Source: Candidatus Palauibacter poriticola
GTDB taxonomy: Bacteria > Gemmatimonadota > Gemmatimonadetes > Palauibacterales > Palauibacteraceae
NCBI GenBank assembly: GCA_012270965.1
Contig: JAAXHJ010000076.1
Coordinates: 1-64,000, forward strand
Reading direction: 5' to 3'
Length of the DNA stretch: 64,000 nucleotides
The notes below the pieces were generated by a model that searched no databases, was not told the DNA's origin, and was given only the letters and a program-made list of their open reading frames with translations. A program made the translations under genes and the position numbers. Below are positions 7,531 through 63,491 of the stretch, piece after piece; within the stretch, counting starts at the first letter, position 1; every line of letters begins with the position of its first letter.

Positions 7531-7543
7531 TTCAGTGCTTCCG

Positions 7544-8710: not shown

Positions 8711-8988
8711 GTCGGAACGCCTCACAGCGAGACCGGGACCCGCAGCCGGCCACGGGGCCGGCGGAAGGCCACCAAAGGTACACGGGCACCCCCTCGGCAC
8801 CAGTCCCCGGGGCGGGCCGTTGCACACCACCCTCCGACGCGCGACGCTTCGGAGGCGGGAGCGGACGGGGCGGAGGGTCGCGGTGGAGGATCGCGGCGGG
8901 AGCGGGAACGGGAAGCGGCGATGCATCGCGGCGGGCGCGGGACGGGGCCACCTGCTGCGGCGGGGCTTCGGCGGAAGGCGGAATTCGG

Positions 8989-9903: not shown

Positions 9904-9905
9904 CC

Positions 9906-10600: not shown

Positions 10601-10645
10601 CTGCAGGCGAGACGGACCTGTTCGGGTGGCTCCTAGTGTCGCCCC

Positions 10646-12205: not shown

Positions 12206-12580
12206 CGAGATCCTCCGGTCATCCAGGTACGGTCGGGGTCCAGGCGCCCGGCCTCGGGCTCCGAGTCACGGACGTCGGGTGGAACGTGGTCAGAGCGACC
12301 GCGCGTGACAAGCAGTGGACGAGAATCGCATCACCCTCCCAGCAGCCATCCGAGCAGCGCCGACGGAACCGCGGACAGATCCGGATCGCTCATGTCCAGC
12401 GCCGCCCTCGTGGCGACGAGGCCGCGCCACGGAGACGCTTTCAGCGTGGGTGCCGTCCGCCTCCATCGGTCTCCGCCCACATACTTCGACTCGATAGCGA
12501 GACCTCCGAAGCCGGGATACCAAATCCGGCAAGCTATGCCAGCTGCGTGTGCGGGACGTTCCCGCTGGAACGTTGCCCTA
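12206..12580. other. Intergenic region, nothing recognised
   Basis: 375 bp upstream of the serine hydrolase and downstream of the next propeller gene, both on the minus strand. Short frames here have no family resemblance. It presumably holds the promoter of the serine hydrolase, but no convincing -35/-10 pair stands out. Confidence 0.4.
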
Positions 12581-13834: not shown

Positions 13835-13913
13835 ACGCATCCTCCGGCGTGAGGCCGGACGCATGGACGAACCGACGAGCACCCCCAACTGACGCGCGTC
13901 GTTTAGCAGCCCA

Positions 13914-16277: not shown

Positions 16278-16489
16278 GGGATCCTCCTGGGTTGCGGGAC
16301 CGGCAGCCCCCGGCCAGAGCCCTGCCGCGTTCGAGCGGCGATGCATCTCGCGGATTCCCGCCACGGACTGCCGAAAGAGAATAGACCGAAGCGTTCGCCG
16401 GCCGGTAGGGCCGCAAGGGTCGCCGCGCCGTTGCGGAGGCGAACGAAGCGGCGCTAGGGTGCCCGCCGACCCGATCCGAGGAGTTTCTC

Positions 16490-45515: not shown

Positions 45516-45730
45516 GGCCATCTCTCCTTGCGGGTCCTGGGTCGCTCCCGAGTCGCCCCGTGCCGACTATTCCGATCAGTTCACGCTACAGATGCCGTCC
45601 GCGTTCGTCCAGAGACCGGCCGGCGTCGATGAGCACGCGCAGGGCAACGCTCGACGGCGCGGGCTGGGCGCGCCATCGTGCGGGCGGACAGGAAAGCTCT
45701 TCCCAGCCTCCCGGAGTTTGGGGATCGCCG

Positions 45731-47248: not shown

Positions 47249-47273
47249 CCGGCGTTCCCGCAGGAGGGGCCAG

Positions 47274-48519
47274 CTAGCCGTCAGACGATGCTTCTATCAG
47301 ATCATACAACCGTACGAACTCGATGCCCATCTTGTCGCTCCATACGCCCAGCACGTAGTCGCGTCCGATGTCGTACGAACGGAAACCGGGCGGCAGAACG
47401 ACGGTGCCGCCGAAGTCTCCCGGGATCGACGGATCGGTGACGACCCAGCGCGAGGGTTCGCCTTCCCCGAGCGCCGGATCGTAGATCTCCCTCCAGACGC
47501 GGCCGCCATCCTGTAGGACGAGCGCCTCGAAAGGTGGAAAAGTCATGGGGGCTGGTGCGGAGGCTACGAACTCTTCGTACCGGTCTCGCCATACGCCGCG
47601 CTCGGTGCGGCCGCGAAACCGAGAGACCCGTTCGTCGATCCACGCCTCGCGAACGCGTTCCGGCACCGCCTTCGGGGGAGGTCCGGCGAAGAACGCTCGC
47701 GGCGTACCGTCTGCGCGAAAGGTGCCCACGAAGTGCCCTTCGATCGGCCCCAAGGCGATCCACTCGCCGCGCACCGCCACCGTAACCGTGCGGAGGAAGG
47801 GCGCGGACACCGTAGAACCGCCGATGCGCATGCTCTCGCTTCCCGTGCTGGACTGCATTTGGTAGATGGTTTCGCTCCCCGGCGTCGGCTGCCCAAAAAG
47901 GAACAACTCGTCCCAACGTGTCGATGAGCACGGGCTGGACGACCGGTGCCCGGTAGGTGAGCACGCTACCAGGATAGTCTCCGTAGTGTGCCTCAACACC
48001 CTGGCCCTCGATCTCCTCGAGTCCCACCAAGGTTCCGTTTGCAAGAAACCCGTAAAGGTGGACCCTTCGCCCCGTTCCATCGAACTGTCGGGATACGTCG
48101 TCAGTCCGTTGGAGCCTTCCGGCGGGCGAGAACATTGTCACACGCTCCGGCAGGAGGTCCAACGCGGCGAGGGCGCCATCCTCGAGTTCCGCAACTCGAT
48201 ACAGACGCCTGAACTCGCCCGGCCCGTCCCCCGCACGGCCGAGGGCCTTCACGAAAGCGCCCCGCGAATCGAAGAACTTGAGGGTCCGTGAACCTCCGTC
48301 CGCCACGAGAATCCCCCCGTCTCTCAGGCGAATCGCGTCGGTGATCCTGAATAGGCTCGTGCCATCGCCGTCAACGGTTCCGATCTGGATTCGTGGCTCC
48401 TCGGAGATGTGATAGGCGACCGGCAACCCCTGGTCCACGCCTGCGGCCGCAATCGATCCCGGGAGGACCACGAGCGCGAATGCCCAGCCAAGGAGGAGTG
48501 CCCGTTCGCTTGGCCCCAT
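47274..48519 (-). pseudogene. 6-bladed beta-propeller gene with one frameshift
   Basis: Two frames together encode one propeller protein of the same group as 12581-13834. The first part, from ATG 48519, has a signal peptide (ALLLGWAFALVVLPGSIAAA) and the hallmark GRAGDGPGEFRRLYRVAE; it runs to LIDTLG. The second part takes over near 47912 with DELFLFGQPTPGSE and continues through IEGHFVGTFRADGT to the stop at 47274. A one-base insertion or two-base loss joins them; no long homopolymer lies at the point, so programmed shifting is unlikely. Otherwise both halves look well preserved, so the lesion is recent or a sequence error. Confidence 0.75.
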
Positions 48520-48675
48520 GCCACGCACTGCTCGAACCGTCGTGGTCCGACTCGTCCGACTGCCCAACGCTACTGTACGCAGATACAGGAGGCGCACCCG
48601 ATTTCCCGGGTATCAAAGTCGCAGCTTACGTCGCAGTGGGCAGTCGTCCCGGCCGGGCACCAGCGCTGCATGGTT

Positions 48676-48855
48676 TCAACCATGTCCTGCCACGCCATCA
48701 TGCAATTCAAGAATCGCGCCCGGATCCTGTGCGCACGCCGGCTCCGCACCGATGATCCCCGCGGTGTACCTGTGGTCGACAGGGGTCGGGGTGAAAGCGA
48801 GCGTGATGCACGACGCGGGAAGGACCGTATGGAGTACGTTCTTCAAGCGCCTCAT
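48676..48855 (-). CDS. Small putative secreted protein, 59 residues
   Basis: Not a known family. The ATG at 48855 has a strong GGAGGAGGGG stretch five to twelve bases upstream. The N-terminus (MRRLKNVLHTVLPASCITLA) looks like a basic region plus a modest hydrophobic segment, and EPACAQDPG further on resembles a signal cleavage region. It lies upstream of the frameshifted propeller gene on the same strand. The strong ribosome-binding site is the main support; without it I would not call this frame. It could also be the leader of a longer, decayed gene. Confidence 0.4.
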   Translation of the reverse strand: MRRLKNVLHTVLPASCITLAFTPTPVDHRYTAGIIGAEPACAQDPGAILELHDGVAGHG

Positions 48856-49152
48856 GCTAATCCCCTCCTCCGAACGTGGACGGGCCGCCGGTCGACGCAT
48901 GCTACGGCCGCCGAAGCTAGCGATAAATCCGGAGAGCCGCCAAGAGGCCCGAACTTCGAAGTCGGCGATCGCTGGAGCGGGCAGCAGTGTGCGATGCCCC
49001 GGCGACCCTCGTCGGCCGGGCATGATCGTGCTCGCCGTCGTCCCGATGGTCATCGCCGCGGAGGACGGGCAGACGCCTTCCGAGTCCGGTGATCCTTGCC
49101 CGGTCTGGTGATCGCATCCCATCGTCCAAGTTCCTACTACCAGGGAGGACGG
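48856..49152. other. Divergent intergenic region
   Basis: About 300 bp between the small minus-strand frame and the NHL gene on the plus strand. I see no reading frame of note. It should hold promoters in both directions, including the one for the gene set that leads into the amine dehydrogenase cluster. Confidence 0.4.
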
Positions 49153-50178
49153 ATGCGGAAACCAAGGCGAACCTCGCTTCTTGCGGCCCTCGGGCTGGCG
49201 GCGGGCGTCGCGGGGACGGGCGGGCTTCACGCACAGTTGACGGCCCCGAACCCCTACATGGCCACCGACGGCTGGGGGCAGCTTCCCGACGGACGCGCCT
49301 GGGGCGCGACGAGCGCCGTCTACCCGGCCCCGGACGGGGAACACATCTGGGTGGGCGAGCGGTGCGGCGCGAATCTGTGCGTCGAGAGCGACGTCGATCC
49401 GATCCTGCTCTTCGACACCGAGGGGAGTCTCGTGCGGAGCTTCGGCTCGGGGCTGATTGCGTGGCCGCACGGAATGTTCGTCGAGGAGGACGGCAGCGTA
49501 TGGGTGGCCGACGCGGTGGGATACGCGCCGGTACCGGAGGGCTGGGGGCATGTGGTCTACAAGTTCAGCCCCGAGGGTGAGGTTCTGATGGTTCTGGGCG
49601 AGCAGGGCGTGGCGGGGGACGGCCCGAACCACTTCAACAAGCCGTCGGACATCCTCGTCGCGCCCGACGGCAGCATCTTCGTGGCGGACGGGCACGACGC
49701 GGGCGGCAACAACCGCATCGTGAAGTTCGCGCCCGATGGCACCTTCCTCATGGAGTGGGGGCGCGCGGGCACGGCGAACGGGGAGTTCCGCGACCCGCAC
49801 GCGCTCGCGATGGATTCGCGGGGACGCCTCTTCGTCGGTGATCGGGGCAACAGCCGCGTCCAGGTCTTCGATCAGGAGGGGAACCACCTCGAGACGTGGC
49901 ACCAGTTCGGACGCCCGAGCGGGCTGTTCATCGACGAGGAGGATGTCCTCTACTCGACGGATTCCGAGTCGAACGCGCGCCGCAACAAGGGATGGCTCCG
50001 CGGCATCTACATCGGCGACGCGGCGACCGGTTGGGTGACGACCTTCATCCCGGATCCGGAGCCCAATCAGGATGCGTCCGGCACGAGCGGCGCGGAGGGG
50101 ATCGCGGTCGACGCGCACGGCAACCTCTACGGTGCCGAGGTCGGACCCCGGCAGATGAGAAAATACATCCGGCGTTAG
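49153..50178 (+). CDS. Secreted NHL-repeat protein
   Basis: A 341-residue exported propeller. ATG 49153 follows GGGAGGACGG; the signal peptide ends near GGLHAQ. NHL blades are clear: WPHGMFVEEDGSVWVADA, VYKFSPEGEVLMVLG, PSDILVAPDGSIFVADGH, IVKFAPDGTFLMEWG, ALAMDSRGRLFVGDRGNSRV and GIAVDAHGNLYGAEV. The protein lies 92 bp ahead of another secreted protein gene that runs straight into qhpG, so it may be the first gene of the amine dehydrogenase transcription unit. Its role there, if any, is unknown; it is unlike the QHNDH beta subunit, which is present separately. Confidence 0.85.
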   Translation: MRKPRRTSLLAALGLAAGVAGTGGLHAQLTAPNPYMATDGWGQLPDGRAWGATSAVYPAPDGEHIWVGERCGANLCVESDVDPILLFDTEGSLVRSFGSGLIAWPHGMFVEEDGSVWVADAVGYAPVPEGWGHVVYKFSPEGEVLMVLGEQGVAGDGPNHFNKPSDILVAPDGSIFVADGHDAGGNNRIVKFAPDGTFLMEWGRAGTANGEFRDPHALAMDSRGRLFVGDRGNSRVQVFDQEGNHLETWHQFGRPSGLFIDEEDVLYSTDSESNARRNKGWLRGIYIGDAATGWVTTFIPDPEPNQDASGTSGAEGIAVDAHGNLYGAEVGPRQMRKYIRR

Positions 50179-50270
50179 CGGAGTCGGGAGCAACGGAGTC
50201 GGGAGCAGCCGGCAGCGGATTCGGGAGCAACCGGCAGCGAAGTCGGCAGCAACAGCGCGGGAGTCGCGAG
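50179..50270. repeat. Imperfect tandem repeats between two secreted-protein genes
   Basis: Units of about 15-22 bp based on GGAGTCGGGAGCAAC and GCAGCCGGCA follow each other from 50180 to about 50265 with drift. They separate the NHL gene from the next gene. No spacer structure, so not a CRISPR. Confidence 0.7.
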
Positions 50271-50942
50271 ATGAGACACACGATTGGCTTCATGGCGATC
50301 CTGTTCGCGTTCGGGGCGAGCGGGGCGGCGGCGCAGGACGAGAACACCAGCTTCTTCATCACCAGTTCGAATCCGGGGGATGGCGCGGACCTCGGCGGTC
50401 TCGAGGGCGCGGACGCGTACTGCGAGACGCTGGCCGAGGCGGCGGGGCTGCCCGACCGCATGTGGCGGGCCTACCTCAGCACGACGGGCGCGGGTGGCGT
50501 GAACGCGCGCGACCGGATCGGCGAGGGGCCGTGGTACAACCACGCCGGCACGATGATCGCCCGGGATGTCGAGCACCTGCACAGCAACGGCCCGAACCTG
50601 ACCAAGGCCACGATCCTCACCGAGAACGGCGATGAGGTGAACGGCCGGGGCGACCAGCCGAACCAGCACGACATCCTCACCGGGTCGCTGATGAGCGGCA
50701 TGGCCTCGGACGCGGAGGGCGACACGACGTGCGGCAACTGGACGTCGAGCGGCGAGGGCAGCGCGCTCGTCGGGCACCACGACCGGGTCGGAGGCGGACA
50801 GAACCCGACGTCGTGGAACGAGGCGCACGGGTCGCGGGGTTGCAGCCTCGAGAATCTGCGCGGGACGGGCGGCGACGGGCGCTTCTACTGCTTCGCCGCG
50901 GACGGACCGGGCGGCGGCGCGCTCCGCCAGCGGGTTAACTGA
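50271..50942 (+). CDS. Secreted lectin-like protein of unknown role
   Basis: A 223-residue exported protein (signal ending GASGAAAQ). The body resembles C-type-lectin/endostatin-like secreted proteins of bacteria: FFITSSNPGDGADLGGLEGA, ADAYCETLAEAAG, WRAYLSTTGAGGVNARDRIG, GPWYNHAGTMIA and a C-terminal CSLENLRGTGGDGRFYCFA. Four cysteines could form two disulfides. The family function is not known to me. Its TGA is in the same frame as qhpG and only 6 bases before the apparent qhpG start, so it is very likely co-transcribed with the amine dehydrogenase genes and could be an accessory or substrate-related protein. Confidence 0.75.
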   Translation: MRHTIGFMAILFAFGASGAAAQDENTSFFITSSNPGDGADLGGLEGADAYCETLAEAAGLPDRMWRAYLSTTGAGGVNARDRIGEGPWYNHAGTMIARDVEHLHSNGPNLTKATILTENGDEVNGRGDQPNQHDILTGSLMSGMASDAEGDTTCGNWTSSGEGSALVGHHDRVGGGQNPTSWNEAHGSRGCSLENLRGTGGDGRFYCFAADGPGGGALRQRVN

Positions 50943-50948
50943 GCCGGC

Positions 50949-52490
50949 CTGGCGGACACGTCTTACGATGCCCTGATCGTCGGCGGCGGGCCGGCCGGCT
51001 GCGCCGCCGCGGCGTCGCTGGCGCGGCGCGGACATGATGTCGCGCTGATCACGCGGCCCGCCCCGCCGGCAAAATGGCTCGCCGAGTCGATCCCCGGGTC
51101 GGCGCGGAAGCTCCTTGATCGCGTGGGAGCGCTGGACGCCCTGGACGCGGCGGGCCTCGTGCCGAACGAGGGCAACACCGTGTGGTGGGCCGGGATGCCC
51201 CGCCGGGACGAACGGTTCGGGATGCCCGAACGTGGCTTCCACGCGGAGCGGGCGGCGCTCGAGACGGCCTTTCGCGGAGTGGCCCGCGAGGCGGGCGCGC
51301 GCCTGATGACGGACGGGCCGGTGGTCGAGACGGCCGTCGAGCGCGATGGCTGGCGCGTGGCCACCTCGACCGCGCGCTACCGGGGCCGCTGGGTGCTCGA
51401 CGCCTCCGGCCGGGCCGGGGTGCTCGCCCGGCGCGGGCTCCGAACGCGCGAACGCGGGATCGCCACGCTCGCGCTCGTCGGCCGCTGGACCTCGGGCCGC
51501 GGCCACGCCCCGCCGGACCCCGGCTGCACGCTGATCGAGAGCTATCGGGACGGGTGGGCCTGGTCGGTACCGACGGCGGCGCGCACCCGCTGCGTCACGG
51601 CGATGGTCGACCCGCGCCGCACGCAACTGGCGCGCGAGCGGGGCCTCGACGGCATGTGGCGCGCCGAACTGGCCAAGGCGGCGCGGCTCGGCCGGCGCCT
51701 CGAAGGGGGCCGGCTGGACGGGCCCGTGCGGGCATGTCCCGCGTCGCTCTACGGCGCGGATTCACATGGCCGGCCGGGCCTGCTCCTCGTCGGCGACGCC
51801 GGCTCCTTCATCGACCCCCTCTCCTCGTACGGCGTCAAGAAGGCGCTCGCCTCCGCCTGGCTCGCCGCGATCGTGACGCATACGGGGCTCGAGGACGACG
51901 CCATGGCCGGCCCTGCCTGCGAGTTGTACGACGACCGGGAACGCGAGGTGTACCGCACCTACCGGGCGCTCTCCGTCCCCTTTCTCGAGCAGGCCGCCGC
52001 CGCGAACGGCCACGCCTTCTGGGAGGTTCGCCTCGCCTCCGCCCGGGCGGCGGGCGCGGACCTCCCGGAGCCCGCCGTCGCGTCCGACGGGTCCGCGGTG
52101 CCGGAACCGGGAGACCGCCCGCTCGCCGAACGCCGGGTCGACGCCTTCCTCGCGCGCCCCGAGGTGCGGACGGCGTGGGAGACGATCCGCTCGCTGCCGG
52201 CCGTGCATCTCCGCCCGGCGCCGGGACTCTCGAGCCTTAGCCGCCCCGCCGTCGTCGACGACCGGATCGCCCTCGAGGTCCGCCTCGCCTCCGACCGGCT
52301 CCCGGACGGCGCGCGCTACGTGCGCAATGTCGACCTTCGGCGGCTCGTGGATGTCGCGCCGGACTCCGATCGGGTTCCCGACCTGTTCGAGGCCTACAAC
52401 CGGCGCGCGGCGGCGGTGCCGCTCCCGGATTTTCTGGCCGCCCTCTCCTTCGCCGTGGGCGCGAACTTCCTTGAGCTGGCCGACGCGTGA
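50949..52490 (+). CDS. qhpG: Flavin-dependent monooxygenase for CTQ synthesis, apparent CTG start
   Basis: QhpG hydroxylates the tryptophan of the QHNDH gamma subunit that becomes cysteine tryptophylquinone (known from Paracoccus). The FAD loop is YDALIVGGGPAGCAAAASLA at the extreme N-terminus, and the second FAD motif is LLLVGDAGSFIDPLSSYGVK near residue 280. Between them lies the substrate domain. The first ATG/GTG/TTG in frame is the GTG at 51123, which would remove the FAD loop, so translation must begin upstream: CTG at 50949, 6 bases after the preceding gene's in-frame TGA, gives 513 residues. The assignment to QhpG rests on the neighbouring qhp genes plus the fold. The end overlaps the frame leading into qhpA. 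Confidence 0.87.
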   Translation: MADTSYDALIVGGGPAGCAAAASLARRGHDVALITRPAPPAKWLAESIPGSARKLLDRVGALDALDAAGLVPNEGNTVWWAGMPRRDERFGMPERGFHAERAALETAFRGVAREAGARLMTDGPVVETAVERDGWRVATSTARYRGRWVLDASGRAGVLARRGLRTRERGIATLALVGRWTSGRGHAPPDPGCTLIESYRDGWAWSVPTAARTRCVTAMVDPRRTQLARERGLDGMWRAELAKAARLGRRLEGGRLDGPVRACPASLYGADSHGRPGLLLVGDAGSFIDPLSSYGVKKALASAWLAAIVTHTGLEDDAMAGPACELYDDREREVYRTYRALSVPFLEQAAAANGHAFWEVRLASARAAGADLPEPAVASDGSAVPEPGDRPLAERRVDAFLARPEVRTAWETIRSLPAVHLRPAPGLSSLSRPAVVDDRIALEVRLASDRLPDGARYVRNVDLRRLVDVAPDSDRVPDLFEAYNRRAAAVPLPDFLAALSFAVGANFLELADA

Positions 52491-52591
52491 CGTCGACCCG
52501 CGAGCGGCGGCGGGGCGCGCGGAAGCCCCTTTCGGGGTGGCGCGCCCGCGGCGATGGGCACACAATGGATCGGTTCGGAAAGGGAGGATGG

Positions 52592-54367
52592 ATGAGGCGC
52601 GAAGCGACGACGCGACGGGCACTTGACCGACTGGCGGCGGCCGGAATGGCCGCAGGTGCGCTGGTTTTGCTCGGCGCGCGCGCGCTTCCTCCCACCCCCG
52701 GCCCGCCCTCGACCTCGTCCGCCGACCTCGATTCGGCCCCCTTCGCCGGTGCCCCGGCAGTCCCGGCACAGGCCGACGACGAGGGCTATCCGATCGACCA
52801 CGAGATCATCATTCGTCGCTGTCAGCGCTGCCACGAGCGCGATGACGAAGGGCGGATGACGCGGATCTCCTACGAGCGGAAGACGCCGGAGGGGTGGCAG
52901 ACGTCGGTCCGCCGCATGATCGCGCTCAACGATGTCTTGCTGGGCCCGGACGAGGCGCGCGAGGTCGTGCGCTACCTCTCCAACCGGCAGGGCCTCGCTC
53001 CCGAGGAACTCGAACCCGGCCGCTTCGAGGTCGAGCGCCGCCTCATCGAACACGTTTACGAGGCGGACCGCGACGTCGAGAACACCTGCATCCAGTGCCA
53101 CAGCATGGGCCGCGTCATCACTCAGCGGCGCACGCGCGAGGAGTGGGAACTCCTCATGGCGACGCACCGCGGCCTCTACCCGCTCGTCGACTTCCAGGGT
53201 TTCCAGGACGGGGGCGACGGACCGCAGCCGGTGGACGAGGCGATCGACCACCTCGCCGAGGCCTTCCCCCTCGAGACGCCCGAATGGTCCGCCTGGTCGG
53301 CCTCCATGCGCACGCCGCGCCTAACCGGCACCTGGGCGCTGGCGGGGTTCGAGCCCGGGAGGGGGCAGGTCTTCGGCACGGTGGAGATCTCCGCCGGCGA
53401 CGCTCCCGACGAATTCCGCTCCCGCGCCTCGTACACATACGCGGAGTCGGGTCGTGAGGTGAGTCGCGCCGGACAGGCCATCGTCTACACCGGCTATCAG
53501 TGGCGGGGACGGTCGAATCCCGGCGGTGCGGACGAGTTGCGCGAAGTCATGACGGTGGACCGCGGATGGCAGGAGATGACGGGCCGCTGGTTCTCGGGCG
53601 CGTACGATGAGTTCGGCCCCGACGTGAGGCTCATCCGCGCAAGCGGCGGCCCCGTCGTATCGGGCGTGCATCCCCGGGCGGTCCGCACCGGCGCCGCGTC
53701 CGCCGAACTCCGGGTCCACGGCCTCAACCTCCCGGCGAACCCCGACGCGGCGGACTTCGACTTCGGACCCGGCGTCCGGGTCGAGTCCGCGACGGGCGGC
53801 GACGGAAGCACGGTCACGCTACGCCTCTCGGTCGCTGAGGATGCGGCCATCGGCGGGCGCGACCTCTTCGTGGGCGGCGTGAGCCTGGCGGGCGCGATTC
53901 AGGTCCATGACGGCGTGGACCGTCTCGAGGTGACGCCGCGCGCGGGCATGGCCCGGATCGGCGGCGCGAACTTCCCGAAGGGCTATCAACCCTACGACGC
54001 CATCGGGTGGGACGACGGCCCCGACGGCGAGCCGAACACGGAGGACGACCTGCGGCTCGGGCGCGTGCCCGCGAGCTGGAGCATGGAGGAGTACACGGCC
54101 ACCTTCGACGACGACGACATCCGGTACGTCGGCGCGCTGGGGTCGGACGGGATCTTCACCCCCGCCATCGACGGCCCCAACCCCGACCGCAGGGGCAACC
54201 GAAACAACATCGGCGACGTGTGGGTCGTCGCGACCTATGCGGGTTCCGACGCCGCGGCGGCGGGCGGCGGCGACCTTCGCGCCCGTGCCCACCTCATCGT
54301 GACGGTGCCCCTATATCTCAAGTTCGATCCGTGGCAGGGCGTTCCGACGGGGAGGCTGGTTCCGTGA
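52592..54367 (+). CDS. qhpA: Quinohemoprotein amine dehydrogenase, alpha subunit (diheme)
   Basis: The largest QHNDH subunit; it takes electrons from the CTQ cofactor and hands them to external acceptors through two haems c in the periplasm. From ATG 52592 (GGGAGG four bases upstream) the protein is 591 residues with a signal peptide in RLAAAGMAAGALVLLGARA. Haem sites are C77-x2-C80-H81 (RCQRCHE) and C166-x2-C169-H170 (TCIQCHS). From about residue 240 to the end are three beta-rich domains (for example LTGTWALAGFEPGRGQVFGT, VHPRAVRTGAASAELRVHGL), as in the family. The frame is also open from a GTG at 52487 that overlaps qhpG. The end overlaps qhpD by 4 bp. Confidence 0.93.
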   Translation: MRREATTRRALDRLAAAGMAAGALVLLGARALPPTPGPPSTSSADLDSAPFAGAPAVPAQADDEGYPIDHEIIIRRCQRCHERDDEGRMTRISYERKTPEGWQTSVRRMIALNDVLLGPDEAREVVRYLSNRQGLAPEELEPGRFEVERRLIEHVYEADRDVENTCIQCHSMGRVITQRRTREEWELLMATHRGLYPLVDFQGFQDGGDGPQPVDEAIDHLAEAFPLETPEWSAWSASMRTPRLTGTWALAGFEPGRGQVFGTVEISAGDAPDEFRSRASYTYAESGREVSRAGQAIVYTGYQWRGRSNPGGADELREVMTVDRGWQEMTGRWFSGAYDEFGPDVRLIRASGGPVVSGVHPRAVRTGAASAELRVHGLNLPANPDAADFDFGPGVRVESATGGDGSTVTLRLSVAEDAAIGGRDLFVGGVSLAGAIQVHDGVDRLEVTPRAGMARIGGANFPKGYQPYDAIGWDDGPDGEPNTEDDLRLGRVPASWSMEEYTATFDDDDIRYVGALGSDGIFTPAIDGPNPDRRGNRNNIGDVWVVATYAGSDAAAAGGGDLRARAHLIVTVPLYLKFDPWQGVPTGRLVP

Positions 54368-55803
54368 TCAAGCCCATCGGCCAACTGGCGCTGCGCGAAT
54401 TCCACGCCTTCGAGGCGGCGGGCGAGCGCTTTCTCTATCTCGTCCCCTCGGCCGGCATCTTCCGGATCGATGCGGCATCGTCCGCGATCCTCGACCTGCT
54501 CAGCTACGGTCCCCGAGCGCCGGGCGAGGTCGTGAACTCTCTCTCGGACCGATACTCCGCCGAGCGCGTGCGCGACGGGCTGCTGGAACTCCGGCAGATC
54601 CGCGCCATCGGAGAGGCGGGGGCTCCCACCGAAGCCGTCGCGAACGACCTGCCGCCCGACGGCTTCCCGCTCACGACGATGGTCCTCAACGTCACGAACA
54701 AGTGCAACCTCGCGTGCACCTACTGCTACGAGTACGGCGAGGACAAGATCGTCGACCCCACGTGCACGGACGACCCGAAGTTCATGCGGGACGAGACCGC
54801 GCGGGAGAGCGTGGAGTTCCTCCTCAGGGAGTCGGGAGCGCTCGAGGTCGCGCACCTCACCTTCTTCGGAGGAGAGACGCTGCTCAACTTCCCCGTGCTC
54901 CAGGACACCGTGGCCTACGCCCGCCGCCGCGCCGAGGAGGAGGGAAAGCGGATCGAGTTCAGTCTCACGACGAACGCGACGCTCCTCCGCCCCGACATCA
55001 TCGAGTGGCTGGCGGACAACGAGATCGGCGTGACCGTCTCCATCGACGGACCGAAGGAGATGCAGGACCGCATGCGGGTCTTCCACAGCGGCAAGGGCTC
55101 CTACGAGACGGTCCGGCCCCGGATCAAGGAACTGCTCCGCCGGCACAAGTCCCGTCCGATCGGCGCGCGCGTCACGCTCACGCGCGAGAACCTCGACATC
55201 CATCGCATCTACCGTCACCTGACGGAGGAAATGGGGTTCTGGGAGGTGGGCTTCGCCCCGGTCACGACCTCCTCCGGGCGCGACTACGAGATCGAGGACG
55301 AGGGATACGACCGCATGCTGCGCCAGTTCGGAGAGTTGGCGCGCGACTGGCTGGATCACGCGGTGGGGAACCGGCACCACGGCTTCTCGAACGTGAAGGA
55401 CACGCTGGAGGAGATCCACAAGGGGGTGAGCAAGGCGTATCCGTGCGGGGCCGGCCTCGGGCTCATGGGCGTGACGACGGGGGGCGACGTGTCGCTCTGC
55501 CACCGCTTCGCCTACTCGAACGACCACAGCTTCGGGACGGTCGCCGAGGGGATCGACCGGGAGCGGCAGAAGGACTTCCTCGAGGATCACCACATCAAGA
55601 ACAAGACGGACTGCCATACATGCTGGGCCCGTCCGATCTGCTCGGGCGGCTGCTATCACGAGGCGCACACGAGACACGGCGAGACGACCGCGCCCAACCT
55701 GCACTTCTGCAACTGGGTTCGGACGTGGACGCACACGTGTCTGGAGATCTACGGAGAGCTGTCGGAGCGGAACCCGGAGTATCTGGCCCGCTTCGACCAT
55801 TGA
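54364..55803 (+). CDS. qhpD: Radical SAM enzyme forming thioether cross-links in QhpC
   Basis: QhpD makes the Cys-to-Asp/Glu thioether bonds of the gamma subunit inside the cell before export. The GTG at 54364 is shared with the qhpA stop. Residues 1-90 resemble a PqqD-like peptide-recognition domain (AGERFLYLVPSAGIFRID). The radical SAM cluster motif is C114-x3-C118-x2-C121 in NKCNLACTYCYEYG, followed by FFGGETLLNFP and LTTNATLLRPDIIEWL. The C-terminal third is a SPASM-type domain with many cysteines (KAYPCGAGLGLMG, DCHTCWARPICSGGCYHEA, HFCNW) for two more Fe-S clusters. 479 residues, the expected size. It sits directly ahead of its substrate gene. Confidence 0.95.
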   Translation: MIKPIGQLALREFHAFEAAGERFLYLVPSAGIFRIDAASSAILDLLSYGPRAPGEVVNSLSDRYSAERVRDGLLELRQIRAIGEAGAPTEAVANDLPPDGFPLTTMVLNVTNKCNLACTYCYEYGEDKIVDPTCTDDPKFMRDETARESVEFLLRESGALEVAHLTFFGGETLLNFPVLQDTVAYARRRAEEEGKRIEFSLTTNATLLRPDIIEWLADNEIGVTVSIDGPKEMQDRMRVFHSGKGSYETVRPRIKELLRRHKSRPIGARVTLTRENLDIHRIYRHLTEEMGFWEVGFAPVTTSSGRDYEIEDEGYDRMLRQFGELARDWLDHAVGNRHHGFSNVKDTLEEIHKGVSKAYPCGAGLGLMGVTTGGDVSLCHRFAYSNDHSFGTVAEGIDRERQKDFLEDHHIKNKTDCHTCWARPICSGGCYHEAHTRHGETTAPNLHFCNWVRTWTHTCLEIYGELSERNPEYLARFDH

Positions 55804-55852
55804 CGCGGCCGGGCGCGGACCCGGCCGGCCTTCGCATGCGAGGGGAGAAGCC

Positions 55853-56188
55853 GTGAAGCACTCGAAACCGATCAACCGGAAGGCCGTCCGCATCGAGGCG
55901 CAGGTCGCCCGCGAGGAGCTGGACGTCGTCGGACTCGAAGGCCGGCCACCGGAGGGGCCGCACATTCCGCTGGGCTGCTCCCTCGTCTTCGCGCCCGGTT
56001 GGGAGGTGGATTCGACCGGCGGCACCGCCGGGCTGTGCCAGCCGGTGGAACGGGATCTGTTCGACTGCCACCTCGCCTGCTTCTGGCCGGCGCACGTACC
56101 CGATCAGCTCAACCACTCGCCGGACTGGACGTCGCAGTGCGCGTCGGCGCAGAAGGACTGGCGGAAGCTGGATCTCGTCTTCCCGTGA
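55853..56188 (+). CDS. qhpC: Quinohemoprotein amine dehydrogenase, gamma subunit (CTQ-bearing)
   Basis: This 111-residue protein is the catalytic subunit carrying the cysteine tryptophylquinone. All cross-linking residues of the Paracoccus subunit are here with identical spacing: C42-E51, C62-D68 and C76-D84 for the three thioethers, and C72-W78 for CTQ (DCHLACFWPAHVPD). If the mature numbering is the same (first cysteine at 7), the mature chain starts near residue 36, so an N-terminal leader of about 35 residues (basic start MKHSKPINRK) is removed, presumably by QhpE. There is no Sec signal; export would use QhpF. An extra cysteine, C96, is not part of the known set. The stop overlaps qhpB by 4 bp (GTGA). 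Confidence 0.96.
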   Translation: MKHSKPINRKAVRIEAQVAREELDVVGLEGRPPEGPHIPLGCSLVFAPGWEVDSTGGTAGLCQPVERDLFDCHLACFWPAHVPDQLNHSPDWTSQCASAQKDWRKLDLVFP

Positions 56189-57324
56189 TCCGAAGCACGC
56201 ACTCCAAGCGCCGGGGCGCTTCGGTTGCGGCGTCCGCTTGCGGGCTCCCGTTCGCCGTGGTCGCGTTCGGCTTTGCGCTGAGCGGTGTTCGCGAGCTGGA
56301 GGCGCAGGGAAACGGCCGCAACGCCCACTGGTACATGGGCAACTACAGCAACGAAGTCCTCGTCTGGGATGAGGCGTCCGAGGAGGTCGTGGACCGGATC
56401 CCGGTCAAGCGTCCGATCTCCCTTCGTCTCGACGTCTCCGAGGATCGATCGCGGCTCTACGTGATGGACCCGTTCTTCGAGACGATCGAGATCATCGCGC
56501 TCCCCTCCAAGGAATCCATCGGGGAGTTCACGCTGAGCGAGGGCGCGACCCGTACGTGGATCCGTTCCTTCCAAGTCCACCCCGGCCAGGCATGGATGGC
56601 GCTGCTCGTGCAGAGCCGCACGAAGCTCGCGGACCGGTACAGGATCGACGAGCCCGCCATCCTGCGCTTCGACCTCACGACCTACGAGGTGACCGACACG
56701 ATCCCGTGGCCGGACGAGGAGACGCGCCGGTCCGCCAACTTCCGCTTCTCTCCCGCCGGCGATCTCCTGTACATGTTCTCGGACGACCTCGTCGCGCTCG
56801 ATTCCGAGAGTTTCGAGGAGGTGGACCGCTGGGAGATCTCGGAGCCGCTGGAGCCGGGGCTGGGGGAGATGAGACTCCCCTTCGGCCAGAGTCCCTATCA
56901 GGAGGAGGATGGCGTATACACGGGCCTCTTCCGCATGACGGATCCGCTCCAGAACCGCCGTCTCATGGGCATCGCGACCGTGGATCTGGCGGGGCAGGAC
57001 GTGGAGTTCCATCCCATCGGTCCCAGCGAGGGCGTGTCCTTCGTGCTTTCGCCGGACGGGACGAAGGGCTACGGGTTAAAATCCGAGATCGGGCACTACG
57101 AGATGTGGAAGTTCGATCTTCGGGAGCCGCGGGTGGCCGGGCGCATCACCTTCGCGGGACGGCCGCGGATGGCGTTGATGCCGAGCGCCGACGGCACGAA
57201 GCTCTACATCTACAACGCCGGCAGCACGATCGACATCTACGACGAGGAGACGTTCGAGTTCCTGCGGACGGTCACGCTGGACGCGGACATGACGAGCGTC
57301 GTCGTGGTGCCCGATCCCGGCTGA
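56185..57324 (+). CDS. qhpB: Quinohemoprotein amine dehydrogenase, beta subunit
   Basis: The beta subunit is a seven-bladed propeller that packs against the alpha and gamma subunits in the periplasm. GTG at 56185 shares bases with the qhpC stop; the protein is 379 residues. A signal peptide (AVVAFGFALSGVRELEAQ) precedes the blades, visible as HWYMGNYSNEVLVWDEASEE, RLYVMDPFFETIEIIAL, FRFSPAGDLLYMFSDDLVAL, VSFVLSPDGTKGYGL, RMALMPSADGTKLYIYNAG and IDIYDEETFEFLRTV. The call relies on position between qhpC and qhpF and on the propeller; the fold alone would not be specific. Confidence 0.92.
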   Translation: MIRSTHSKRRGASVAASACGLPFAVVAFGFALSGVRELEAQGNGRNAHWYMGNYSNEVLVWDEASEEVVDRIPVKRPISLRLDVSEDRSRLYVMDPFFETIEIIALPSKESIGEFTLSEGATRTWIRSFQVHPGQAWMALLVQSRTKLADRYRIDEPAILRFDLTTYEVTDTIPWPDEETRRSANFRFSPAGDLLYMFSDDLVALDSESFEEVDRWEISEPLEPGLGEMRLPFGQSPYQEEDGVYTGLFRMTDPLQNRRLMGIATVDLAGQDVEFHPIGPSEGVSFVLSPDGTKGYGLKSEIGHYEMWKFDLREPRVAGRITFAGRPRMALMPSADGTKLYIYNAGSTIDIYDEETFEFLRTVTLDADMTSVVVVPDPG

Positions 57325-57330
57325 TTCCCG

Positions 57331-58989
57331 GTGATCCGGGACCCGCACTTCCGCCGAGCCCTCGCCTACGTTCGACCGTACGCGGGGGCTTTGCTTCCCG
57401 TGGTCCTCCTCTCCACGGCCGGGACCGCGCTCGGGCTCGCGCTCCCCTACCTGTCGAAGGCGATGATCGACGACGCGATCCTGGGCGGGGACTTCCCTCT
57501 CCTGCTCCGGATCGTCGGCCTCTTCATCGGGATCATTCTCCTCGGCTTCGGGGCCAACGTGGCGAGCGGGATGCGGTACACGCGGGTGTCGGCCGGCATC
57601 CTGTTCGACATGCGGCTGGCGCTCTACCGCCACCTGCAGCGGCTCTCGCCGCGCTTCTACGCGCGGACGCCGTTCGGGGACATCGTCTCGCGCATCAACA
57701 GCGACATCGGCGAGATCCAGCGGGTGACGGCGGACGCGGCGCTCGGGCTGTTCGGGAACGTGCTCTTCCTGATCGGGACGGTGGGGATGCTCATCTATCT
57801 CGACGCGCGGCTCTTCCTGGCGGGGATCGTCGCGCTGCCGCCCAGCCTGTGGGCGCTGGTGAGGTACCGCCGGCGGCTCGAGGGGCGGGTGACGCACCTG
57901 CGGGAGCGGAGCGCGGACATCGGGAGCTTCCTCATCGAGACGCTGCAGGGGGTGCGGACGGTGGTGGCGTCCAACGCGCAGGAGCGGGAGGCGGCGCGCT
58001 TCGGGCGACACAACGACCGGTTCGTGCGGGCGCTGCTGTCGATGCGCCGCTACACGTACCTGGCGGGCGGGCTGCCGGGGGTCCTGCTCCAGGCGGGGGC
58101 GGCGGCGGTGTTCCTGTATGGGGGCTACCGGGTGATCACGGAGGCGACGACGCTGGGGACGTTCGTCGCGTTCATGGCGTACCAGATGCGGCTCCTCTTT
58201 CCGGTGCAGGCGCTGATGGGGCTGTACGCGAACCTGGCGAGCGCGCGGGCGTCGCTCGTGCGCGTCCACGAACTGTTCGACACGCCGCTCGAGGTGGTGG
58301 AGGCGGATGGGGCGGAGCGGCTGGGGCGGGCCGCGGGGGCGCTGGTTCTGGAGGATGTGCGGCTCGGCTTCGGGCGCGGCGGCGAGGTGCTGGAGGGGGT
58401 GTCGCTGGAGGTGCCCGCCGGGCAGTTGGTCGCGCTCGTGGGTGCGAGCGGGAGCGGGAAGTCGACGATCGCGGACCTGCTGTCGCGCCAGCTCGACCCG
58501 GACGGCGGGCGGGTGCTGCTCGACGGGCGGGACCTGCGTGGGCTCGCGCTGGCCGACGTGCGGCGGAACGTGGCCGTGGTGGAGCAGGACCCGTTCATCT
58601 TCCACGCCTCGATCGCCGAGAACGTGCGCTACGCCAAACCCGACGCCACGGATCTGGAGGTCGCCGGGGCGCTCGCGGCGGCCGCGCTCGACGGGCTGCT
58701 GGCGTCGCTGCCGGAGGGGGCGGCGACGGTGGTCGGGGAGCGGGGCCGGCAGCTCTCCGCCGGGGAGCGGCAGCGGGTGGCGGTGGCGCGGGCGTTCCTG
58801 GCCGATCCGGCCGTGCTCGTGTTCGACGAGGCGACGGGGGCGCTGGACCCGGCCTCGGAGGCGCAGGTGCTGGAGGGCTACGCCGCGCTGATGCGGGGGC
58901 GGACCACGGTGCTCATCACGCACCGCCCCGAACTCGCGCGGAGGGCGGAGCGCGTGGTGGTGCTCCGCGACGGGCGGATTGCCGGGTGA
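57331..58989 (+). CDS. qhpF: ABC exporter of the QHNDH cluster
   Basis: A 552-residue half-transporter: an N-terminal six-helix membrane domain (residues 1-300) and a C-terminal ATPase. Walker A is GASGSGKST, the signature is QLSAGERQRVAVARA, Walker B is VLVFDEATGALD, and the switch His is in VLITHRPEL. In Paracoccus QhpF is needed to move the matured gamma subunit to the periplasm. Homodimerisation is expected. There is no peptidase domain; the leader is cut by the separate subtilase encoded next. GTG 57331 is 6 bases after qhpB; the stop overlaps qhpE by 4 bp. The coding DNA is extremely GC-rich. Confidence 0.93.
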   Translation: MIRDPHFRRALAYVRPYAGALLPVVLLSTAGTALGLALPYLSKAMIDDAILGGDFPLLLRIVGLFIGIILLGFGANVASGMRYTRVSAGILFDMRLALYRHLQRLSPRFYARTPFGDIVSRINSDIGEIQRVTADAALGLFGNVLFLIGTVGMLIYLDARLFLAGIVALPPSLWALVRYRRRLEGRVTHLRERSADIGSFLIETLQGVRTVVASNAQEREAARFGRHNDRFVRALLSMRRYTYLAGGLPGVLLQAGAAAVFLYGGYRVITEATTLGTFVAFMAYQMRLLFPVQALMGLYANLASARASLVRVHELFDTPLEVVEADGAERLGRAAGALVLEDVRLGFGRGGEVLEGVSLEVPAGQLVALVGASGSGKSTIADLLSRQLDPDGGRVLLDGRDLRGLALADVRRNVAVVEQDPFIFHASIAENVRYAKPDATDLEVAGALAAAALDGLLASLPEGAATVVGERGRQLSAGERQRVAVARAFLADPAVLVFDEATGALDPASEAQVLEGYAALMRGRTTVLITHRPELARRAERVVVLRDGRIAG

Positions 58990-59699
58990 GGGAGCCGCTC
59001 CGGAGCCGGACCGGGCGCGGGGTCTCCATCGCGGTCATCGACAGCGGGGCGCATCCGAACCATCCACATCTGGGACTCCTGGCGGGCGGGGTCGCGTTCA
59101 CGCCCGACGGACGCGAGCACGACGATCTGACCGACCGGCTGGGACACGGGACGGCCGTCACCGCCGCCATCCAGGAGAAGGCGCCGGGCGCGCGGGTCCA
59201 CGTCGCCCGCGTCTTTCACGACGAGCTGGCGACGAGCGCCCGGACGCTGGCGAGGGCGATCGACTGGACCGCGGAGCGCGGCTGCCGGCTGGCCAATCTG
59301 AGCCTCGGAACGCCCCGCCAGAGCCGCATCGAGGTGCTGCAGCCCGCCGTCGAACGCGCCGCGCGGGCCGGAACGATCGTCATCGCCGCCTATTCGCACG
59401 AAGGACGGCTTCAGCTCCCGGGCAGCCTCCCCGGCGCCCTCGGCGTGTGCCTCGACTGGGACCTGCCCCGGCACGGCGTCCGCGTCGGCCACCGCGATGG
59501 CCGCCGCGTCCTGCACGCGTCCGGCTACCCGCGCCCCATCCCCGGTGTCCCCCCCACCCGCAACCTCAGCGGCATCAGCTTCGCCGTGGCCAACGCGACC
59601 GGCATCCTCGCCCTCGCCCTCGACCTCTTCCCCGAAGCCCAAGGCCGCACCGCCGCCCTGGAGGCTCTCGATGCGCTGGAACGGGTCCGGATGTCATGA
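58986..59699 (+). CDS. qhpE: Subtilisin-like protease removing the QhpC leader
   Basis: QhpE is an unusual intracellular subtilase that clips the leader of the cross-linked gamma subunit. This 237-residue protein starts at GTG 58986, overlapping the qhpF stop. The triad is D19 (IAVIDSGAHP), H54 (RLGHGTAVTA) and S198 (LSGISFAVANATG), where the usual GTSMA is replaced by GISFA, like other small single-purpose subtilases. There is no signal peptide or propeptide, which agrees with action in the cytosol. The chain is shorter than normal subtilisins (about 275), so only the core is present. It is the last gene of the cluster. Confidence 0.92.
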   Translation: MREPLRSRTGRGVSIAVIDSGAHPNHPHLGLLAGGVAFTPDGREHDDLTDRLGHGTAVTAAIQEKAPGARVHVARVFHDELATSARTLARAIDWTAERGCRLANLSLGTPRQSRIEVLQPAVERAARAGTIVIAAYSHEGRLQLPGSLPGALGVCLDWDLPRHGVRVGHRDGRRVLHASGYPRPIPGVPPTRNLSGISFAVANATGILALALDLFPEAQGRTAALEALDALERVRMS

Positions 59700-60546: not shown

Positions 60547-61667
60547 ACGCACTCCTGTCCGCAGCAGGAGAGATCGTCGAGGTACATGCCCCACATCCTG
60601 TACATCTCGAGCTCCTCGGCGGGCAGGCCGAGCGAGGTTGCGATCGACTTGGCGACGACCGCGAACCGCTGCCGGTACTTGAAGATGAAGCAGAAGATGT
60701 GCTTGTCGTGCCGCACGGACGCGCCGCACAGGTAGATCCCGGGGACGATCGTCGATTCGTCGTGCTCGTTGAGGAGCGGGAATCCGTCGTCGCGTGCCTC
60801 GAAGAGGTCCATCAAGAGCGGATGGCTTCCCTCGAACCCGCCCGCGAGGAGGGGCTGCACGGGCGTGCGAAAGCGCTGCCCGTCAGCCGTGGCGACCTCG
60901 AATCCGGCATCGGCGGCAGCCACGGCGGTGATTGCGGTGTCGGGAAAGAGCTCCACGTGCTCCGCGTACGAAGGGCGCCGCGTCCGCTCGAGCGAGAAGG
61001 TGGAGAGCGCGACGCTGGGATCGGAGCTCTCGGACCCCCAGGGACTCTCCTTGTCGAAGAGACGCACCCGCTTGCCTCGCTCGGCCAGGTGGCTGGCGAC
61101 GTCGACACCGCTCTCGTAGCCGCCGATGACGATGAAATCGTCCCCCTCCAGCTCGGCGTAGCTGGGGAGCAGCGCCGTGTGCAGGCACAGTTCGCTGCCC
61201 TCGAAGCTGTTCAAGCGCGGGTACTGGAAGTCGCCCGCCGCCCAAATCACGTGCCGGGCACGCAGAGATCCCGCTGTCGTTTCGACCACGAACTCTTCGC
61301 CGCTTCGGTCGATCCGAAGCACGTCGACGCCCTCCTGGACCGGCAACTCGAAGTGGTCTGCGATCGCCGTGAGGAAGGCCGCATACTGCCTCCCCGTGGG
61401 GTGCTCGACCTCCAGGGACCAGGCGGCCGAGGTCCCGATCACGACGGAATTCAGGTCGAGCATGCCGACCGAGTTCGTCGGGAACGAAGGTGTGATGAAG
61501 CGAGTCTCGGCCGGCCACTGGGCGAACGAGGCACCCACCGAGTGGCGTTCGAGCGCGACGAAGTTCTCGATCCCCGCGTGCGCGAGTGCGACCGAGACGC
61601 CCACGCCGGCCGCCCCCGCGCCGACGATGACCACATCCAACAGGTCGTCCTGAGCCGTAGTGTTCAT
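60540..61667 (-). CDS. FAD-dependent oxidoreductase with C-terminal CCxxxCxC tail
   Basis: A 375-residue flavoprotein of the FMO/thioredoxin-reductase-like type. FAD loop [18 protein letters not shown] lies at residues 12-29; a second nucleotide loop is [18 protein letters not shown] near 190, and the late ATG-like motif is [11 protein letters not shown]. The last eight residues read CCGQECVC (C368, C369, C373, C375), an uncommon tail suited to binding a metal. The ATG overlaps the stop of the CobW gene (ATGA), so GTPase and flavoprotein are made together. Family members oxidise small molecules or reduce disulfides; with this context a redox or metal-delivery role is plausible but unproven. 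Confidence 0.85.
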
Positions 61668-62908
61668 CCAGCCACCTCCTCGACCATCTGAAGCTCGGGG
61701 AAGGGGTTGGCACGTCCCTCCCAGGTGCTGCTGTCGCCGGCGGCAAGGGCTTCGTCGAGCAGGCATGCGTCGAGGCGCGCGCGTATCGCGACCTCATCCA
61801 TCCGCTGACCGATGAAGACGAGTGCCTGGTTACGGTCGCCGTACCGCGGGTGCCAACTCGACTGCTGGTTCGGCCGCTCTCCGTCCGGGTGGTCCCAGTA
61901 CTCCCTCGGCGTCGCGGCCCACCACATGCCCATGGGGTTGACGGAACTCACACCCCCGGCCTGTTCCCACTCGTATACGGCCTTGTGATCGGCGGCGACC
62001 CAGAAGAAGCCCTTCGACCGGAGCACGCCGCGCCAGTTCTCATCGTCGTTCAGGAACGCCCACAGCTTCTCCGCGTCGAACGGCGCCGGAGTCCGATAGG
62101 TGAAGGTCGATATCCCGTACTCCTCCGTCTCGGGCGCGTGGTCTCCCTCGAGTTCGCGGATCCAGCCGGCCGAGCTTTCCGCCTTGTCGTAGTCGAACAG
62201 GCCCGTGTCGAGCACACGCTCAAGGGGCACCTGCCCATGTGTCGCCCGGTGAATCTCCGCGCCGGGGTTGAGCGCGCGCAGAATGGCCTCGACCTCGCGC
62301 GCATGGTCCGCGGCGACAAGATCGAGCTTGTTGAGCACGATGACGTCGGCGAACTCGACCTGGTCGATGAGGAGGTCGGTGACGGTCCGCTCGTCCTCTT
62401 CGCCCAACGACTCACCGCGGTCCTGCAGGTCCTCGGCGGCGACGTAGTCCTTGAGGAAGCTCGCGGCGTCCACGACGGTGACCATGGTGTCGAGGCGCGA
62501 GATGTCGCCGAGGCTCACCCCGTCCTCGTCCTCGAAGGTGAAGGTCTGGGCGACCGGGATGGGCTCCGAAATCCCCGTGGACTCGATCAGCAGGTAGTGG
62601 AAACGCCTCTCCCGGGCCAACCGGGAGACTTCGGCGAGCAGGTCCTCCCGCAGCGTGCAGCAGATGCAGCCGTTCGTCATCTCGACGAGCGTCTCCTCGG
62701 TTCGCGAGAGCTGGGCGCCCCCGCGCTCCACGAGGGCCGCGTCGATGTTGACCTCGCTCATGTCGTTCACGATGACCGCGACCCTGCGTCCCTCCCGGTT
62801 GTTCAGAACCTCGTTCAGGAGGGTGGTCTTCCCGGCTCCGAGGAAGCCGGACAACACCGTGACGGGAAGGCGCTCGTCACGAGGTACGGCGCCTGGATCG
62901 CTGCTCAT
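61664..62908 (-). CDS. CobW/COG0523-type GTP-dependent metal chaperone
   Basis: A 414-residue G3E GTPase. P-loop GFLGAGKTT at residues 21-29, the metal-binding motif CICC within [11 protein letters not shown] (C81, C83, C84), the Walker B-like region [11 protein letters not shown], and NKLDL for guanine. The C-terminal CobW domain has [19 protein letters not shown]. Such proteins deliver zinc to client enzymes under zinc limitation when controlled by Zur, and the divergent Fur-family regulator with a palindrome in between supports that model here. ATG at 62908 follows AAGGAAG. The longer frame to 62980 crosses the palindrome and is not preferred. Confidence 0.93.
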
Positions 62909-62985
62909 CGAACTTCCTTTTCCGGCGCTTCTCACTGCGGGGTGCTCCTGCAAGCGGATTGCGAGGGCAGGAAAATACACAAGTG

Positions 62986-63001
62986 ACTTGCATGTGCAAG
63001 T
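62986..63001. promoter_or_regulatory. Palindrome between CobW and Fur/Zur-type genes
   Basis: ACTTGCA-TG-TGCAAGT is a perfect 7-bp inverted repeat with a 2-bp centre, within AAGTG...GCTT flanks that are partly symmetric. It lies in the 145-bp divergent gap, 78 bp from the CobW ATG and 53 bp from the regulator ATG. Position and symmetry make it the best candidate operator for the regulator encoded next to it. It does not match the classic E. coli Fur or Zur boxes. Confidence 0.65.
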
Positions 63002-63053
63002 GCTTGTCCCTAGCGTTTTCGAACTTCATCTCTGCACGCGCGGGGGAAGGCCC

Positions 63054-63491
63054 ATGCGAATCACCAAAAACGAGGCCCGTCGGAGGCTGCGCGAGTGCGG
63101 TCTGCGCGTGACCGCACCGCGCCTTGCGGTGCTCCGCATCCTGGCCGCCGCCGAGGGTCCGGTATCCTTCACGCAGGTGCTCGACCTGCTGGGCGACTCG
63201 GACTGGGATCAGGCGACGATCTACCGCAACCTGGTCAAGCTACGCGAGGCCGGCCTCGCCCCCGTGGTGAGTCGGGCGGACGGCATCGACCGATACGCGC
63301 TCGCGGGAGACCACGAAGACAGCCATCGCCATCCGCACTTCCTGTGCGAGGCCTGCGGCCGGGTGGCCTGCCTGAAGGAAGAGGTCACTACGGCGTTATC
63401 GATCGATGGGCCGTGGGCCGAGTCCATCCGCCGCGCGATGGTGCACCTCCTCGGCCACTGCCCGGACTGCCTCGCCCAGGCCGATGCCTGA
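63054..63491 (+). CDS. Fur/Zur-family transcriptional regulator
   Basis: A 145-residue Fur-superfamily repressor, distinct from the one at 30139. Winged helix: LRVTAPRLAVLRILAAAEGP, then DQATIYRNLVKLREAGLA as the recognition helix. The metal-binding hinge region is His-rich (HEDSHRHPHFLCEACG), and a second Cys pair is CPDC near the end; both pairs fit the structural zinc site. Divergent location against a CobW-type zinc chaperone suggests a zinc-responsive regulator, but iron or peroxide sensing is not excluded. ATG 63054 follows GGGGGAAGG. It is convergent with the amidohydrolase gene. Confidence 0.9.
   Translation: MRITKNEARRRLRECGLRVTAPRLAVLRILAAAEGPVSFTQVLDLLGDSDWDQATIYRNLVKLREAGLAPVVSRADGIDRYALAGDHEDSHRHPHFLCEACGRVACLKEEVTTALSIDGPWAESIRRAMVHLLGHCPDCLAQADA

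Follow-up and report, generated by a model that had tools for sequence, protein, structure and literature searches.

Quinohemoprotein amine dehydrogenases (QHNDH) are found in both Gram-negative and Gram-positive bacteria according to the available part of a review (PMC8172795), and their qhp genes were reported in 2021 from more than 1,300 species, with variable gene order, in the part of PMC7876137 that was available. The closest described systems are those of Pseudomonas putida and Paracoccus (structures 1JMX and 1JJU). We analyzed a stretch of 64,000 nucleotides from Candidatus Palauibacter poriticola (positions 1 to 64,000 of contig JAAXHJ010000076.1; the whole stretch is called the window), in which a complete set of seven genes, qhpG-A-D-C-B-F-E, lies on the plus strand at 50949 to 59699. 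The Pseudomonas and Paracoccus systems have the same seven kinds of gene, the same alpha-subunit domains and heme motifs, and the same crosslink and cofactor residues in the gamma subunit, and their beta subunits are the best fold matches of the one encoded here. The window gamma subunit differs from theirs in having C61, D36, and F42 (mature numbering, by alignment to 1jmx_G) instead of A61, G36 (Gly or Ala across the Pseudomonas/Paracoccus type), and W42. We refer to the Pseudomonas/Paracoccus type as type I and use type II as our own label for the second set; L-numbers designate fetched loci. We assign a probability of about 0.9 to the reading that the locus encodes a QHNDH with its whole maturation line and belongs to a second sequence type. 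The locus is a genuine QHNDH operon, ordinary-looking in its predicted function, and its point of interest is a conserved fifth cysteine in the gamma subunit rather than its host or gene order.

All seven qhp proteins are present in this order. An earlier note on this DNA had proposed a full, co-directional QHNDH cluster in a genome of Gemmatimonadota type, and the family matches together with the fold of the beta subunit bear this out, the host genus being Candidatus Palauibacter (Gemmatimonadota). A qhp family model was the best match for six of the seven proteins, and the E-values of the best NCBIfam matches span 1e-13 to 1e-170, which excludes chance. In the profile searches, the alpha subunit, QhpD, and the gamma subunit passed the NCBIfam equivalog cut-offs whereas QhpG, QhpE, and the beta subunit missed them, although the qhp model was still the best match of each. 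The alpha subunit contains domains I to IV (PF09098, PF14930, PF09099, and PF09100) and matches 1jmx_A in the PDB with an E-value of 1.4e-80. For QhpD the next-best model reached 283 bits, and the best PDB match was 5wgg (E = 2e-61), which is CteB according to the available part of PMC7876137. CteB and related ranthipeptide maturases perform non-alpha thioether chemistry like that of QhpD (PMC8326336, available part) but, unlike QhpD, act on small precursors of ribosomally synthesized and posttranslationally modified peptides (RiPPs). The earlier note had described junctions of 4 to 8 bp, which holds for A-D, C-B, and F-E (−4 bp each) and for B-F (+6 bp); D and C are separated by 49 bp and G and A most likely by about 101 bp.

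Since the score of the beta subunit against TIGR03907 was far under the cut-off of 223 (50.7 bits, E = 1.4e-13, residues 52 to 366), its fold was tested. An AlphaFold model built from a 43-row alignment had a predicted local distance difference test score (pLDDT) of 87.3, and the top two of its 1,914 PDB matches were solved QHNDH beta subunits, 1jju_B (E = 1e-20) and 1jmx_B (2e-18), at 18% identity. The modeled fold thereby confirms a beta-propeller QHNDH beta subunit. A PDB search with the beta sequence alone gave a surface-layer propeller as its sole match and no QHNDH beta subunit. All of the 43 type II beta subunits matched TIGR03907, far under the cut-off and with an E-value never better than 1.6e-25. 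Type II QhpG and QhpE lie around the cut-offs of their models (best E-values, 1.6e-74 of 27 and 7.5e-50 of 21, respectively), those of the window just under them. Because the public models under-score this branch, annotations may miss part of the amine oxidation by QHNDH in Gemmatimonadota and Acidobacteriota.

The assignment to a second type was based on gamma cores and on trees of the other proteins. In a tblastn search of plasmids, the gamma subunit of Novosphingobium sp. RL4 was 64% identical to that of the window, and the other 25 records were 39 to 50% identical. Ninety-two distinct gamma cores from 182 of 183 loci form two sets, with no intermediates in the sample; the remaining locus, L059, has a truncated gamma subunit lacking the four-cysteine motif and was left out of the core counts. 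Because some contigs were fetched twice, under a named and an unnamed locus, counts are given as distinct cores. Type II comprises 82 distinct cores, contributed by Novosphingobium sp. RL4 and by the loci fetched from Gemmatimonadota and Acidobacteriota, and type I comprises 10, from plasmids of Cupriavidus, Pseudomonas, Paracoccus, and Leisingera, a small and plasmid-borne sample (10 of the 25 non-Novosphingobium plasmid records, four genera). A pattern scan of relatives' contigs kept 80 of 321 relatives; all 51 loci brought in by the gamma-subunit family PF08992 alone (21 from Acidobacteriota and 30 from Gemmatimonadota) are type II, and the result is thus independent of the pattern scan.

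The two types are also split by a single branch in every tree, all of which are unrooted, without an outgroup, and restricted to closed rows of sufficient length. Support for this branch was 100 in a QhpD tree of 69 rows, from which 15 near-duplicates were left out, and in 27-row trees (20 type II and 7 type I rows) it was 100 for G, A, D, B, and F and 93 for QhpE. In all six of the latter trees, the window also falls with the same nearest kin. Between the types, QhpD identity is 33 to 41% (mean, 37%). Judged by C61 and D36 of its gamma subunit and by its grouping in the trees, the window cluster is a member of a deep second sequence type. The record titles of L133, L136, and L137 (Gammaproteobacteria), L106 (Rhodospirillaceae), and L119 (Bifidobacterium breve) look wrong: L136 belongs to the Gemmatimonadota by genome match, in the same class as the window, L133 and L137 resemble it, and L106 and L119 look mistitled by tree position. 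These doubtfully titled loci were not counted as further phyla.

Every chemical step and the substrate proposed for this locus are taken by analogy from work on Paracoccus and Pseudomonas. By homology, the gamma precursor would be made with a leader. QhpD would install Cys-to-Asp/Glu thioethers at C7-E16, C27-D33, and C41-D49, QhpG would dihydroxylate Trp43, QhpE would cut off the leader, and QhpF would export the product. In the periplasm, the gamma subunit would join the alpha subunit, with its two hemes c, and the beta subunit, and Trp43 and Cys37 would become cysteine tryptophylquinone (CTQ). The resulting enzyme would deaminate primary amines, passing the electrons on via the hemes.

The gamma subunit could be aligned to both 1jmx_G and 1jju_C. 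Its leader is predicted to span about residues 1 to 35, the core starting at about residue 36, compared with a leader of 28 residues in the available part of PMC7876137. The residues whose roles in the thioethers and CTQ are described in the available parts of PMC7876137 and PMC8172795, C7, E16, C27, D33, C37, C41, W43, and D49, are kept in the window and in 92/92 distinct cores of both types. Position 61, in contrast, is Cys in 82/82 distinct type II cores and Ala in 10/10 of type I, and position 36 is Asp in 82/82 and 0/10, respectively, with Gly or Ala in type I. Position 72 is Asp or Glu in type II versus Gly or Gln in type I, and position 42 is Phe, Tyr, or Gly versus Trp. In total, 14 gamma positions have no residue common to both types. 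Type II QhpD proteins carry one more conserved cysteine, an eighth, near the C-terminal end and past the seven SPASM cysteines (74/74 rows, versus 0/10 in type I). Among 71 type II alpha subunits, cysteine occurs in more than 30% of the rows only at the four heme cysteine columns, and among 77 type II beta subunits it does so at no column; C61 is therefore without a conserved disulfide partner in the trimer. A disulfide to alpha or beta was rejected on this basis, though single rows carry extra cysteines: of the closed type II rows, 60/72 alpha subunits have exactly four cysteines after residue 45, and 80/95 beta subunits have none, the other 15 having one or two. A literature search found no description of a gamma subunit with five cysteines; key papers of 2012, 2014, and 2015 were outside its reach.

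The fifth cysteine is probably a free thiol with a structural or functional role (a buried contact or a metal or redox site), in a subunit whose crosslinks are those of type I. The Ala61 of type I would fit a small side chain buried at this place, and the lack of a conserved partner cysteine in the alpha and beta subunits points the same way. However, a residue that is cysteine throughout two phyla and on a Novosphingobium plasmid, and never Ala, Ser, or Val, would be unusual for packing, and a thiol in the periplasm is open to oxidation. It is possible, but in our estimation unlikely, that QhpD instead links C61 to Asp67, Asp72, or Asp36 in a fourth Cys-to-carboxylate thioether. The invariance of C61 and its missing disulfide partner would be explained in this way. 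Asp67 and Asp72 lie at +6 and +11 from C61, the acceptors known for QhpD are found 6 to 9 residues past the Cys, and Asp67 is invariant with the same spacing as in C27-D33; Asp36 and Asp/Glu72 are specific to type II, as is the extra cysteine of QhpD. The case is weakened by the invariance of Asp67 in type I as well, where C61 is absent. Because the types have no residue in common at so many gamma positions, the joint presence of C61 with Asp36 or Asp72 is weak evidence. The AlphaFold model of the gamma subunit (pLDDT, 44.5) is not trustworthy for distances and was not used. Some ranthipeptide maturases carry a cysteine near the position of the eighth QhpD cysteine, and the extra cysteine of type II may be ancestral. 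We hold it doubtful, then, that the type II systems of Gemmatimonadota and Acidobacteriota form a fourth thioether by means of a QhpD with an extra invariant SPASM cysteine. If they do, their CTQ subunit would carry more crosslinks than any other known to us and would mark a second branch of the enzyme that is under-annotated. Type II clusters are present in two named strains, Edaphobacter modestus DSM 18101 and Novosphingobium sp. RL4, and type I and type II QhpC/QhpD offer a natural enzyme pair for probing the role of the fifth cysteine.

Several observations weigh against a QHNDH with its whole maturation line. The beta subunit, QhpG, and QhpE of the window score under the NCBIfam cut-offs, which type I plasmid controls pass (QhpG, 558, 529, and 364 bits in Cupriavidus, Pseudomonas, and Leisingera; beta, 455, 380, and 368 bits; QhpE, 279 bits in Cupriavidus). 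The known AraC-type regulator QhpR is missing, because no HTH_18 protein in the genome, which is 94.3% complete, reaches the cut-off of 33.6 (best, 28.2 bits, on another contig); in this the locus differs from type I qhp systems. The cluster has no full aldehyde dehydrogenase as a neighbor; full-length ones are on other contigs, and the contig of the window has one weak partial match at 6709 to 7416. Our search turned up no type II member in which activity, cofactor, or crosslinks had been measured. The locus might instead be read as the remnant of a qhp cluster, degenerate or put to another use such as a thioether RiPP without CTQ, to which the low beta score and the truncated gamma subunit of one relative (L059) would lend some weight. 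We consider this highly improbable: all seven frames are open, with a GC content at third codon positions of 0.88 to 0.96, every crosslink and CTQ residue is retained, and the gamma gene is retained in 14/17 genomes of the genus. The QHNDH reading is supported here by gene content, conserved residues, the modeled beta fold, and phylogeny.

The earlier note had expected the host and the qhpG-first gene order to widen the range of QHNDH, an expectation that the wider survey does not sustain. With more than 1,300 species already reported, the gamma gene (PF08992) was found in 75/395 genomes and 20/138 genera of a sample of the phylum and in 21/297 genomes of an Acidobacteriota sample, which lessens the weight of a new host phylum as the chief finding. 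Closer to the window, it occurs in 13/16 other genomes of the genus, in 0/18 genomes of the family's other genera, and in 3/28 genera of a 60-genome sample. A literature search found no paper naming Gemmatimonadota as a QHNDH host, key papers being outside its reach, and amine-related terms had no match in the available part of the paper on the order (PMC10469786). As for gene order, G-A-D-C-B-F-E on one strand is the commonest arrangement, found in 27/38 fetched regions of the phylum and also in the alphaproteobacterium Leisingera aquaemixtae (L179; plasmid NZ_CP081046), which rules out a novel order. Of the remaining 11 regions, seven keep the order minus at least one end gene, mostly at contig ends (though not in L041), L042 has qhpG on the opposite strand, and L039, L064, and L059 have only C-B-F or D-C-B-F, the first two with long gaps and L059 with a truncated gamma gene.

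The Leisingera cluster is type I by trees and residues despite sharing the gene order of the window and, unlike the window, has genes for a helix-turn-helix regulator and an aldehyde dehydrogenase after it. The clusters of Edaphobacter modestus DSM 18101 (L140) and Novosphingobium sp. RL4 (L069), in turn, share with the window the C61/D36 gamma type and the order A-D-C-B-F-E but have a far more divergent QhpG-like frame (about 50 bits) in another placement (13977 to 15104 on the minus strand in L140; 15213 to 16502 on the plus strand in L069, mapped from record coordinates). In L140, a LysR-type regulator adjoins this frame. In some loci of Longimicrobiales type (L129, at 5783 to 17152, L105, L095, L109, and L134), the qhp genes are widely separated, and the gaps of L129 hold several repeated genes for lipoproteins that look by eye like beta-propellers. 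Gene clustering around the loci singled out no accessory family linked across both phyla, and its largest clusters resembled reverse-frame or residual qhp frames; one row (L129) was inspected by eye.

QhpG was scored from a frame beginning at 50952, and its match to the QhpG model is the sole strong one in the genome (runner-up, 26 bits). It shares a flavoprotein fold family with LodB/GoxB maturases and CmlS-type halogenases, and halogenases ranked first in a phmmer search of the PDB, where the QhpG structure 7CTQ was tenth of 15. An identity as a halogenase or as LodB/GoxB was nevertheless ruled out, the QhpG model scoring more than 100 bits above their models (81 to 99 bits; the second best, CmlS halogenase, 99 bits). 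At 513 amino acids, the protein is 61 to 102 residues longer than seven aligned type I QhpG proteins (411 to 452 amino acids), mostly through an insert ahead of the C-terminal region. CTG at 50949 is the likely start codon, because the frame, downstream of the stop at 50940, reaches the FAD-binding GxGxxG motif without an ATG, GTG, or TTG. Among nine distinct start-site sequences in the genus, the same CTG, two codons after a stop, is present in five (the window, L070, L071, L075, and L034); in L072 and L073 an in-frame CTG overlaps the upstream stop (CTGA), the closest in-frame GTG being 48 codons upstream, and the starts in L078 and L077 are ATG and TTG, respectively. The open frame of qhpA begins at GTG 52487, but ATG 52592, which sits behind GGGAGG, is most likely the start, and it is this that makes the G-A junction a gap rather than an overlap. 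QhpF is an MsbA-like exporter that its tree joins to other type II QhpF proteins, and no qhp-specific model was among the matches listed for it (25 of 185 families).

Table 1. Features of the qhp locus in the window, with gene products as predicted
Feature	Coordinates	Strand	Evidence
qhpG, flavin-dependent peptidyl-tryptophan dihydroxylase, 513 codons, probable CTG start	50949..52490	+	NF049967 215.9 bits (cut-off 240)
qhpA, di-heme alpha subunit, signal-like N terminus	52592..54367	+	TIGR03908 473 bits (cut-off 274); two CXXCH
qhpD, radical S-adenosylmethionine (SAM)/SPASM thioether-forming enzyme	54364..55803	+	TIGR03906 568 bits (cut-off 453)
qhpD-qhpC spacer, 49 bp, two predicted hairpins	55804..55852	+	RNAfold −26.2 kcal/mol
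qhpC, gamma-subunit precursor, 111 amino acids, GTG start	55853..56188	+	NF037958 126.6 bits (cut-off 50); PF08992 116.4 bits
Asp71 (mature Asp36), type II-specific	56063..56065	+	Core alignment
Trp78 (mature Trp43), CTQ precursor	56084..56086	+	92/92 distinct cores
Cys96 (mature position 61), fifth invariant cysteine	56138..56140	+	Core alignment
qhpB, beta-propeller beta subunit	56185..57324	+	TIGR03907 and AlphaFold fold match
qhpF, putative ATP-binding cassette (ABC) exporter for processed gamma subunit	57331..58989	+	PF00664, PF00005; position; tree
qhpE, subtilisin-like leader protease, GTG start	58986..59699	+	NF049966 158.2 bits (cut-off 165); PF00082

Between 48400 and 60200, no sigma-70-like promoter was found, and one terminator-like site was present versus 3.7 in shuffles; Rfam and tRNA scans of the window gave no match. 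The hairpin pair of the qhpD-qhpC spacer is kept in six close relatives (L070 to L075), whereas the spacer of L076 is 13 bp and the other folded loci have a weaker spacer or none, without the pair. These predicted tandem hairpins may perhaps set the expression of the gamma subunit. Upstream of qhpG and in the same direction (45560 to 50942), the window encodes a HupE/UreJ-like membrane protein, an NHL-repeat protein, and one protein without a Pfam match, genes that stay near qhpG within the genus but are rearranged in L078. Downstream of the cluster, at 61664 to 63491, a ZigA-type zinc metallochaperone GTPase adjoins a Fur-family regulator, perhaps as a zinc-response pair.

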